From NCBI GenBank assembly GCA_020829485.1, contig JAIVFU010000200.1:1-9262 (forward strand): 9,262 bases of DNA. The letters are read 5' to 3'. The first letter of the stretch is position 1; every line of letters begins with the position of its first letter. Below the pieces are notes generated by a model. That model searched no databases. It was not told the origin of the DNA and saw only the letters and a program-made list of their open reading frames with translations. This DNA is from Nostoc sp. CHAB 5834 (GTDB taxonomy: Bacteria > Cyanobacteriota > Cyanobacteriia > Cyanobacteriales > Nostocaceae). Position numbers and translations under genes: made by a program. Shown piece after piece: positions 1-9,261 of the stretch.

Positions 1-124
1 GATTGGTGGTATTCAAGCTAGAGGGGAAAAAGGAAACTACAGTACACAACGTATTAAATTTAGCTCTAACAGTTCTGGTTAACTTTTCGTTACATAGTTA
101 TGATTTTTCCTGCCGACTTACTTA
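1..124 (+). mobile_element. End of an insertion sequence, left copy (inverted relative to the copy at 9138-9261)
   Basis: Position i pairs with position 9262-i on the other strand without a mismatch for 124 bases, after which the two copies diverge at once. Both copies stop at a TA dinucleotide (123-124 here), as expected for an IS630/Tc1-mariner-type element that duplicates TA. The last bases, CCGACTTACTTA, also end the MITE at 4006-4146. An open frame reads inward to a stop at 80-82, leaving about 40 bp of non-coding terminus. The repeat and its boundary are seen directly; the IS630-type assignment is inference, because the rest of the element lies outside the window. Confidence 0.8.
2..82 (+). 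CDS. 3' end of the IS-encoded protein, probably the transposase (partial)
   Basis: The frame is open from the window edge to a TAA at 80-82 and gives the C-terminal 26 residues, beginning IGGIQARGEKGNYSTQ and ending in a Ser/Asn-rich tail. It lies wholly inside the 124-bp repeat and ends about 40 bp before the element boundary, where a transposase gene normally stops. The same codons occur in the inverted copy at 9180-9260. I do not recognise the family from this tail, and the reading as transposase rests on position. Confidence 0.4.
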   Translation: MGGIQARGEKGNYSTQRIKFSSNSSG

Positions 125-3190: not shown

Positions 3191-3235
3191 TATCAAGGTT
3201 GATTAAGGGAACTCCAAGAAATAAATTATCCAATA

Positions 3236-3266
3236 TTGTGGGGTGGGCAAGATGCCCACCCCACAA
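3236..3266. repeat. Perfect 13-bp inverted repeat, probable terminator or dispersed cyanobacterial palindrome
   Basis: TTGTGGGGTGGGC pairs perfectly with its complement across a 5-base loop (AAGAT), 46 bp after the kinase stop. No T-run follows directly, but a T7 stretch begins about 16 bases later. Palindromes of this GTGGGGTGGGC type are, as I recall, scattered through cyanobacterial intergenic DNA. It could end kinase transcription and also protect the 3' end. Confidence 0.6.
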
Positions 3267-4005
3267 GAGTTAATTGAATATTTTTTTATTTGGAAGTCCC
3301 TAACCATCCTGTTTAAGCATCTATTGATAATGAATAATAGATAATTTTATTACCTTTATTTATTACCAATAGACACGAAGATAAGGAAACTGTGAAAGCT
3401 ATACTAACGTTGTTAGTTTACACTTTCGCTCTGACTTTGTACTGCTGTTTGCGCTTCAGTAGTGAACCGGCACCTAAAGCGCCAAACGCTAATAAACCTA
3501 ATCCAGAAGCAGGTTCAGGTATAGTTCGTCCCTTAGATATAGCCCCAGTCACGTTATCCAATCCGAAACCTTCTCCTCCTCCTAAATCCTCAATTCGTGA
3601 TATGAAAGTCACCTTACGAATATCTTCTACAGGATTAGTAACAAACCCAAAGAAGCCATCGTTGACTGTTACTGGAATGGTGTCTAAAACTCCACCTATA
3701 TCCAACACAAGGTCTAAATTCAGCCCTTCTCCACTATTTGCTTCAAAGAAATCTGCTCCCCATCCAAAAACTGGAGTATTTAAAGTTAAGTCTACATTGG
3801 TAGCCCCAAAATCAGTGAATACTGAGGCATGATTTGTACCATTGTTGTCATCGTACTCGAAAGGTGACACCTCAATCAAGTTACGGAACGCAGGATCATT
3901 TCCTACTTGAAGGAGTGTGAACTCTCCAACGTCAACAGGGGTGGTTCGGAATTCTGTATCAGAAGTAAAACTTTCAAAATCTTCACTGAATGTGTTACTT
4001 CCTGA

Positions 4006-7773: not shown

Positions 7774-7807
7774 GGGGGTGTGGCGGAATGGTAGACGCTA
7801 CGGACTT

Positions 7808-8091
7808 AGATAACTGAGCCTTGAAGGAGAAATCCCTCAAGTGGAAGCTCTCAAACTCAGGGAAACCTAAATCTGGTGACAGACATGGCAATCCTGAGCC
7901 AAGCCCAGAAATTTTAGATTTGCGATTTTAGATTTATGATTAGTCTTCAATCCAAAATTCAAAATTGAGGGAAGGTGCAGAGACCCGACGGGAGCTACCC
8001 TAACGTTAAGCCGAGGGTAAAGGGAGAGTCCAATTCTTAAAACCTGACTTTGCTAAAGCCATCAGGTAGTAGTGAAAACTGCGGGAGAATG
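7808..8091 (+). ncRNA. Group I intron of tRNA-Leu(UAA), 284 nt
   Basis: This self-splicing intron starts after T7807 and ends in G8091, as group I introns require. Conserved core segments can be seen: GCAGAGACCCGACGGGAGC with CTACCCTAACG near 7976-8005, and GGGAGAGTCCAATTCTTAAA near 8020-8040. A peripheral loop at 7914-7941 carries four tandem heptamers of the TDNGATT class (TTAGATT, TGCGATT, TTAGATT, TATGATT), followed by AATCCAA-type complements. These are known from the P6b stem of Nostoc-group introns. There is no homing endonuclease gene. Confidence 0.9.
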
Positions 8092-8120
8092 AAAATCCGT
8101 TGACCGTAAAAGGTCGTGTG

Positions 8121-8141
8121 GGTTCAAGTCCCTCCACCCCC
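8121..8141 (+). other. CAST homing target: GGTT PAM plus 17-nt protospacer in tRNA-Leu
   Basis: GGTT at 8121-8124 fits the NGTN PAM of type V-K systems. The next 17 bases (8125-8141) equal the solitary spacer at 8325-8341 (minus strand) at 16 of 17 positions; only base 10 differs. From the PAM to the transposon end at 8189 there are 64 bp, within the 60-66 bp reported for Scytonema hofmannii CAST. Confidence 0.9.
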
Positions 8142-8153
8142 ATTTGGCAGACC

Positions 8154-8187
8154 AAAAGACTTTTATACAAGCTATAGGAGTCTTTTT
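8154..8187 (+). terminator. Rho-independent terminator of tRNA-Leu
   Basis: AAAAGACT (8154-8161) pairs with AGTCTTTT (8179-8186), with an inner TATA/TATA pairing, and the stem ends in a T5 run (8183-8187). The transposon end starts right after it, so insertion left the tRNA terminator intact. Confidence 0.75.
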
Positions 8188-8196
8188 GTGTACAGT

Positions 8197-8282
8197 GACT
8201 AATTATTTGTCGTCGGTGACACATTGTTGTCGTTGAGCCAGATTATCTGTCGCTAGTCTAGTAGTGACAAATTCATGTCGCT
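8197..8282 (+). repeat. Four TnsB-type binding repeats at the CAST end
   Basis: Four copies fit TGACnnATTnnTGTCG loosely. Their TGTCG cores start at 8208, 8228, 8248 and 8276, with spacing of 20, 20 and 28 bp. Transposon ends of the Tn7/CAST type carry such arrays for the TnsB transposase. The first and last copies (TGACTAATTATTTGTCG, TGACAAATTCATGTCG) are the best preserved. Confidence 0.8.
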
Positions 8283-8324
8283 GATAATGCACTCTGTAAT
8301 CATTATACAAAGCAACTAAAACGA

Positions 8325-8378
8325 GGGGGTGAAGGGACTTGCTTTCAACCCGCCCCTAACTTTAATAATTACTGAAAC
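8325..8378 (-). CRISPR. Delocalised CRISPR repeat with tRNA-Leu homing spacer
   Basis: The minus-strand repeat (8342-8378, 37 nt) begins GTTTCA and ends TAGGGGCGGGTTGAAAG. Against the ShCAST repeat as I remember it, 27 of 37 positions match, with both ends conserved and the middle changed, as in the atypical repeats described for CAST homing. Its spacer (8341 down to 8325) is CAAGTCCCTTCACCCCC. It matches the 3' end of the tRNA-Leu gene at 16 of 17 positions, and the match stops after base 17. In V-K CASTs this crRNA directs Cas12k to a chromosomal tRNA gene for vertical homing. It could still be transcribed and used by a complete CAST elsewhere in the cell. Confidence 0.88.
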
Positions 8379-8403
8379 CTAACACTAATCCCGTTTGAAA
8401 TAT

Positions 8404-8440
8404 TTTTAAATCCTCCCATTGCTGAGAGGACGGTTGCAAC
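8404..8440 (-). CRISPR. Degenerate CRISPR repeat fused to the cas12k fragment
   Basis: Starting at GTTGCAAC (8440 down), a 37-nt ungapped alignment to the remembered ShCAST repeat gives about 24 matches, where about 9 would be expected by chance. It forms a small hairpin (TCCTC/GAGGA). It lies 25 nt upstream of the homing repeat on the same strand and overlaps the tail of the cas12k reading frame. I read it as the last, decayed repeat of the lost main array. It could instead be an unrelated hairpin. Confidence 0.45.
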
Positions 8441-9140
8441 AATCAAAATCAGCTAAGAAGCGTTTAAACCAGTGCAGTTGACGACTATCACAGTACACCT
8501 CAAAAGTTAAATCGCTTAAGCCATTGAAGTGAACACATAACCTACCTTTTTCGTTTGTTGACCAAACTAGGTCTTCGTTCGTTTCATAAACCAGAGGAAA
8601 AGGGACAGAACTAGATCGGGTTAAGAGAATATACTGCCTGCGTTTGGCTTCAGCATTGTCTTCTGGAACAGTTGTTGTAGCAGTAAGCAGCGTCTCCAAC
8701 CATCTAGCATTAGTTAAATCTCGACCTTTAGGAATTCGACTTGTTAGCTTTTCGGTTAGCCTTTGAATTTGGATTTCTAGCTTACGACGGCGTTTAGCAA
8801 ATTTTTCTGGATCTTCTTCTTTTTCATTGAGTTTGCAGCCATTTTTCAGCAAATAGCTGATGGCGCTACGGCTGAGTATATCGTCAGTTTCTTGGTAAGT
8901 GTCAAATAATTTATGAGATAAGCTTCGATCGGGATTGGAAGCGGATGATTTTTTGGATTTTTTAGTCTTTCTTCTTTTACTTAAAGGAGGATTAGATTCA
9001 GATTCTGGCGTAGCCATTGCCAAAATTTCAGCAGCTTTGGTACGAATTACTTCTAAGCTACAATCGCTCATTTCTACTAATTCAGTATCGCTGTTGAGCA
9101 TTTCTAGCCAACGTATCTTGCCATCTAGCTGTTGCTGTAA
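8406..9140 (-). pseudogene. cas12k: cas12k (C2c5) fragment, truncated at both ends
   Basis: Cas12k is the nuclease-dead, RNA-guided targeting protein of type V-K CASTs. This frame matches my memory of ShCas12k from about residue 101 (LQQQLDGK.RWLEMLNSD) to about 340 (CDSRQLHWFKRFLAD). Clear blocks include RSAISYLLKNGCKL, EKFAKRRRKLEIQIQRLTEK, KGRDLTNARWLETLLTATTT and NEKGRLCVHFNGLSDLTFEVYC. The family has about 640 residues, so roughly 100 N-terminal and 300 C-terminal residues are missing, including the RuvC-like half. At the 5' side the frame is cut by the IS at its TA (9138-9139). At the 3' side it leaves homology after FLAD and runs into a degenerate CRISPR repeat, ending FDCCNRPLSNGRI. 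The ATG at 9099-9101 is an internal Met, not a native start. The reading frame is still open, so the decay is recent. Confidence 0.93.
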
Positions 9141-9261
9141 GTAAGTCGGCAGGAAAAATCATAACTATGTAACGAAAAGTTAACCAGAACTGTTAGAGCT
9201 AAATTTAATACGTTGTGTACTGTAGTTTCCTTTTTCCCCTCTAGCTTGAATACCACCAATC
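9138..9261 (-). mobile_element. End of an insertion sequence, right copy, inserted in cas12k
   Basis: This is the exact inverted copy of positions 1-124. Its boundary TA (9138-9139) lies inside the Leu codon before QQQLDGK of cas12k, so the IS interrupts the gene rather than lying beside it. The rest of the IS and the cas12k 5' part lie beyond the window. The inward orientation of both copies means they could recombine and invert the 9-kb segment between them. Confidence 0.8.
9180..9260 (-). CDS. 3' end of the IS-encoded protein, second copy (partial)
   Basis: The same 26 codons and stop as at 2-82, on the opposite strand, with the frame still open at the window edge. It ends about 40 bp before the IS boundary in cas12k. 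Probably the transposase C-terminus, by position only. Confidence 0.4.
   Translation of the reverse strand: MGGIQARGEKGNYSTQRIKFSSNSSG

Follow-up and report, generated by a model that had tools for sequence, protein, structure and literature searches.

An anchor spacer beside an intron-containing tRNA-Leu gene

The window, by which we mean the whole stretch of 9,262 nucleotides analysed from Nostoc sp. CHAB 5834 (contig JAIVFU010000200.1), carries on its forward strand a tRNA-Leu(UAA) gene (7774-8142) that consists of a 5' exon (7774-7807), a group I intron (7808-8091) and a 3' exon (8092-8142). The exon and intron boundaries were placed by hand; the intron itself is recognized by Rfam RF00028 with 76.4 bits (match 7798-8045), confirming the sequence-only reading that the target is an intron-containing tRNA gene. 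The anticodon UAA is likewise a hand reading. When run without introns ARAGORN calls no tRNA at the window tRNA-Leu, and once introns are allowed it puts the splice site in the wrong place and calls the window tRNA Ser(aga); the ortholog at locus L045 is called Leu(taa) by the same program. AT-rich short repeats, similar to GATTTTAGATTT, can be seen by eye at 7915-7945 within the intron.

Inside the 3' exon, on the forward strand, a PAM of the GTN class, GGTT (8121-8124), directly precedes the anchor protospacer CAAGTCCCTCCACCCCC (8125-8141), which lies in the T-loop, T-stem and 3' acceptor part of the tRNA gene. A terminator-like hairpin follows on the same strand at 8153-8187, just outside the element (z -2.82 for the stretch 8133-8195), and the transposon left end, of the TGTACA type and beginning TGTACAGTGAC, extends over 8189-8324 (forward strand). 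The position of this end is known from sequence and from its alignment with six relatives; relative to L034 and L044 it lacks about 20 bp internally, near 8252/8253. Immediately within it, on the reverse strand, lie the 17-nt anchor spacer, or guide, CAAGTCCCTTCACCCCC (8325-8341, read from 8341 to 8325) and a delocalised, truncated repeat of 37 nt, R* (8342-8378, read from 8378 to 8342), which is identical to the R* of L044 and whose similarity to array repeats is limited to approximately its last 12 nt. Further in, and also on the reverse strand, a last and degenerate CRISPR array repeat (8405-8441) could be identified by blastn against the array repeats of L034, L044 and L045.

Of the 17 positions of the guide, 16 agree with the 3' end of the neighbouring tRNA-Leu(UAA), and the second-best match in the window reaches only 11 of 17; at equal base frequencies 5.6e-5 chance matches of at least 16/17 would be expected in the window. 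From the PAM to the TGTACAGTGAC end there are 64 bases. Much of what the sequence-only reading had proposed is thus upheld, including the assignment of GGTT as a valid V-K PAM, directly before the protospacer, and the transposon end 64 bp past it, from 8189. That reading had also described a solitary 37-nt repeat with a guide matching at 16 of 17 positions, for which match, strand and length are correct; the repeat is not quite solitary, however, given the degenerate copy that remains at 8405-8441.

The V-K anchor spacer and its delocalised crRNA are reportedly the subject of two primary papers from 2021, one by Saito and the other by Hsieh and Peters. In excerpts from PMC9938897, V-K CASTs are described as having R* with an anchor spacer of 17 nt, a PAM of the GTN class, 46-82 nt between PAM and left end, and a target tRNA gene that points at the left end. 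The window contains R*, an anchor spacer of this length, a GTN PAM and a flanking tRNA gene, its PAM-to-left-end distance lies within the quoted range, and cas12k is on the side given in these excerpts; it differs from the excerpted arrangement in that the effector is broken, the tracrRNA region is missing and so is almost the whole array. The arrangement is a published and common one. A tRNA-Leu target is shared with ShCAST from Scytonema hofmannii, whose left end carries a 17-bp motif matching tRNA-Leu according to the abridged text of PMC10949235, the target in the window being the intron-containing tRNA-Leu(UAA). A guide-target heteroduplex of 17 bp is described for the ShCAST complex in a legend of PMC9876797.

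How the window copy was broken

Cas12k had been placed just inside the transposon end by the sequence-only reading, and cas12k is indeed there, although as a fragment only. By homology the fragment (8454-9140, reverse strand) covers approximately residues 101-331 of 639; it scores 293.1 bits against the Cas12k family, where the cut-off is 150, and 353.9 bits against the solved chain of the homologous ShCAST protein. The type V-K effector is represented in the window by this fragment alone. Compared with L044, the window is homologous through cas12k to 8453 and then again from about 8441, within the last array repeat, and approximately 1.95 kb in between (L044 6650-8602) is missing from it; the junction, on the reverse strand, is 12 nt long (8442-8453) and is possibly a spacer remnant. 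The missing DNA covers the C-terminal half of cas12k, the remaining part of the array and, by position, the tracrRNA region, and the window element has probably lost its tracrRNA in this way. One degenerate repeat is all that is left of the CRISPR array. Since these are losses in a relic, our claim is for the remains of a V-K CAST and not for a working one.

On its other side the fragment breaks off at about 9138, where one end of an IS630-like element (9138-9261, strand not assigned) interrupts it; an identical inverted copy of this end, 124 bases in length, opens the window (1-124). Relatives of this IS, many of them matching in part only, are found in 38 of the 39 genus genomes, and one of them encodes a DDE_3 transposase, on which basis we take the IS to be of the IS630 type. 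The contig ends in the IS, and the far end, the tns genes and the target duplication of the window copy would lie beyond it. A search of a plasmid collection with window 8190-9150 returned no match. Elsewhere in the window, after a kinase gene, there is a self-complementary stretch of about 115 bp (3196-3310).

With repeated IS DNA at both contig ends, and with array repeats that could yield misjoins, the fusion of cas12k to the array might be an assembly error, the element in the cell being whole or broken in some other manner. We consider this quite improbable, as 12 nt separate the two homologies and the junction does not fall at a repeat common to both parts; moreover, two further loci at the same tRNA, L198 and L199, have also lost parts of cas12k. 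A broken effector is in any case a known state for such elements. In the excerpts from PMC9938897 12 degenerated Cas12k are on record, with cas12k broken in a V-K context as in the window, to which the window adds a guide kept at a single tRNA site, a point that these excerpts do not discuss. Among our own loci with partial cas12k (L032-L040, n = 9) the anchor is kept in six and none is found in three, the DNA of all nine extending only 1.5 kb beyond the match; with six of nine retaining the anchor, the relic in the window is not unusual.

Elements at the same tRNA gene and probable homing by the anchor crRNA

V-K anchors at tRNA-Leu(UAA) occur in our sample in the window and at four other loci, and the closest counterpart is the element of Nostocales cyanobacterium LEGE 12452 (L044/L089). 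Its guide and R* agree letter for letter with the window's, the PAM and the 64-bp spacing are the same, and the element sits beside the orthologous tRNA on a syntenic chromosome. Unlike the window it has an open cas12k of 639 aa, an array and a CvkR-type gene, which matches the CvkR structure entry, Alr3614, with 297.1 bits; no right end is found before its contig runs out. Between the tRNA and the transposon end the window and L044 have different sequences, an indication, though no proof, that the two insertions were separate events.

A complete V-K element of approximately 23.8 kb, with its left end at 109009 and its right end at 132807, is present at the same tRNA in Nostoc sp. FACHB-280 (L045/L200-L202; G509:C22). 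Its cas12k is open (653 aa), its tnsB of 585 codons scores 763 bits against ShCAST TnsB over the part given, and it also encodes a TniB/TnsC-type protein and TniQ. The 5-bp outer flanks, CCTAA and TAAGC, are unlike, so that no clean target duplication is seen even in this complete element. The remaining two loci are relics. In L199 (genome G021, 12528-14060) only residues 368-639 of cas12k are left, with two stops, and in L198 (G364, 1332-2245) there are a left end, R*, the guide and three array repeats, followed by a MerR gene similar to the CvkR-type gene of L089, with no cas12k match within 19 kb. Three of the five elements at tRNA-Leu(UAA), namely the window, L199 and L198, thus keep the guide without a whole cas12k. 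A single tRNA site therefore holds two elements with open cas12k and three that are differently broken, all of which keep the guide.

The unoccupied state of this site is seen at L001, in the nearest genome compared (G001). Here the orthologous tRNA region shares 95% identity with the window across 657 bp, the site is syntenic and empty, homology ends at window position 8175, and no cas12k above the cut-off is found in the genome.

The geometry was also followed beyond this one tRNA. The Cas12k fragment, used in one scan of genome contigs, yielded 46 loci, and Cas12k was searched in 59 relatives and in 211 family genomes; the anchor survey comprised 198 sequences (197 loci and the window), from which 158 rows were obtained. 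Nine rows that matched at less than 15 of the 17 positions and one row from L052 were dropped, leaving 148 rows and 119 distinct anchors, of which 79 match at 17/17, 35 at 16 and 5 at 15. An R*-like tail and a GT-type PAM were required throughout and at least 15/17 matches in the final filter, and as selection criteria these do not count as independent evidence. Two properties that the filter did not require can be read from the same anchors. Guide-target identity is 117/119 at position 17 and 23/119 at position 18, a drop that is expected for a 17-nt guide, and a tRNA is called at most 900 bp past the end in 106 of the 119. In anchors whose ends score at least 8 of 11 the distance from PAM to end is 46-82 nt in 82 of 95 cases; the 13 outside this range possibly reflect a misplaced end motif.

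The 3' ends of tRNA genes serve many elements as attachment sites, and one might ask whether the match between guide and tRNA is accidental, or an attachment duplication of the integrase type, with no CRISPR guide involved. We give this next to no credence, for the match is inverted, lies directly behind R*, is accompanied by a PAM and ends at 17 nt, and the same geometry is repeated in the 119 anchors with 58 distinct guides.

The reading that we prefer, with a probability of roughly 0.94, is that a V-K CAST homed by its own anchor crRNA beside tRNA-Leu(UAA) and was later inactivated by a deletion, an IS and loss from its left end. The insertion would have been directed by Cas12k carrying the element's own anchor crRNA of 17 nt, which reads the tRNA gene at its 3' end, and the type V-K CAST would have been placed 64 bp past the GGTT PAM. 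A deletion would have joined cas12k at about codon 331 to the last CRISPR repeat and in the same event taken out the C-terminal half of the gene together with the tracrRNA region and the remaining array; an IS630-like element would have severed the N-terminal part of cas12k, and approximately 20 bp of the left end would have gone missing. What persists, namely the anchor guide, R* and the left end, would no longer be usable by way of the element's own Cas12k. Of the anatomy of the relic we are nearly certain, and this anatomy, the homology, the empty site and the complete relative are matters of observation. That the guide caused the insertion in the window we infer from the published mechanism. 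Counted against homing were the 16/17 match of the guide, short of 17/17, the position of the far end, tns genes and target duplication outside the contig, and the unlike 5-bp flanks of the FACHB-280 element.

Persistence of the guide and end could also mean that the relic is useful, or mobile as a non-autonomous element, either through use of its end and guide in trans by another V-K CAST or through TnsB sites that give target immunity to the tRNA-Leu. The letter identity with L044, the retention of the guide in three of five elements and the two near-complete cas12k genes in genomes of the same genus (G008, G010, G024 and G029) are in keeping with such a role. The left end, on the other hand, is short of about 20 bp, random internal deletions would also be expected to leave a terminal segment, and no far end is seen where the contig ends in the IS, and we regard a functional role of this kind as unlikely, if deserving of consideration. 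Returning to homing followed by inactivation, the claim of a CAST homing relic is well borne out by relatives that have an open cas12k, the same guide and the same tRNA (L044, L045), and by the empty tRNA of L001. The further claim that the crRNA has outlived its effector holds for this element's own broken cas12k and not as a statement about the whole cell, where presumably no other Cas12k now uses the window guide. The locus is a genuine relic of a known system, whose arrangement, tRNA-Leu target and degenerate Cas12k are already on record, and it is a clear fossil of RNA-guided homing that fits the published rule at an intron-containing tRNA-Leu.

Guide mismatches and their possible reading by Cas12k

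The one mismatch of the window guide is at position 10, where the guide has U and the protospacer C, giving a U-G wobble with the target strand. Guides were compared among relatives for 44 hand-picked anchors, with rows lacking a GT-type PAM left out. The position-10 mismatch is common to the guides of L034, L044, L045 and G021; decay of the relic was rejected as its source, and because L034, L044 and L045 carry the same guide and mismatch it must predate the decay. In the guide of L092/L198 the wobble is at position 11 instead of 10. At L042, L046 and L047 a similar R* is found with a guide that has U10 and targets tRNA-Leu(UAG) at 17/17, and the ShCAST guide is presumably of this tRNA-Leu(UAG) type as well. 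The U10 of the tRNA-Leu(UAA) guide may therefore have been inherited from a guide of the tRNA-Leu(UAG) type. A rare T allele of tRNA-Leu(UAA) is another possible source. As an explanation everywhere such an allele was rejected, being present in 0 of 195 genomes of the order, a sample with just two same-genus genomes among those listed and no C-allele control. In 118 family genomes, however, 85 places were found and 4 of them do have the T allele; since hosts with it exist they remain a possible source of the guide.

The identity of the window cas12k fragment is 97.5% to L041 and L043, which home to other sites; for L044 and L045, both homing to the same tRNA as the window, it is 97.1% and 86%. 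Similarity in cas12k thus does not track the guide, in agreement with a published remark on changing att sites.

Over the 119 anchors the mismatch is most frequent at position 15, with 16 cases, above every other position. When events are collapsed by guides within 3 differences, rather than by a tree, position 15 accounts for 9 of 31 (P 5e-5 for position 15, 0.0009 for any position), and when tRNA-Ala events are counted once for 7 of 29 (P 0.0012, any position 0.021). The tRNA-Ala guides have A, T, G or C at position 15 against a constant C. To judge from these comparisons position 15 of V-K guides looks to be barely read by Cas12k; titles and abstract openings among the matches listed in the literature contain no treatment of position-15 or PAM-distal Cas12k mismatches. 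Wobbles (U-G or G-T) make up 15 of the 31 events against 5.8 expected if all changes are equal (P 0.00015). Among the 21 transitions they number 15, where base composition predicts 12.7 (P 0.20), and a general preference for wobbles, being inseparable from transition bias, was discarded. Guide U with target C prevails over guide A with target G in 11 of 13 cases (7.8 expected, P 0.036).

We tentatively suggest, as an idea that is somewhat more apt to fail than to hold, that guides record how Cas12k reads them. Position 15 would be barely read and drift freely, and a single U-G elsewhere would be tolerated, such that a guide could slide between leucine tRNAs by point mutation, with the tRNA-Leu(UAA) guide keeping the U10 of a tRNA-Leu(UAG) guide. 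The 119-anchor survey amounts to a natural mismatch profile for Cas12k that is directly testable with ShCAST. If true, guide sliding would go some way to account for the rapid and so far unexplained turnover of V-K attachment sites.
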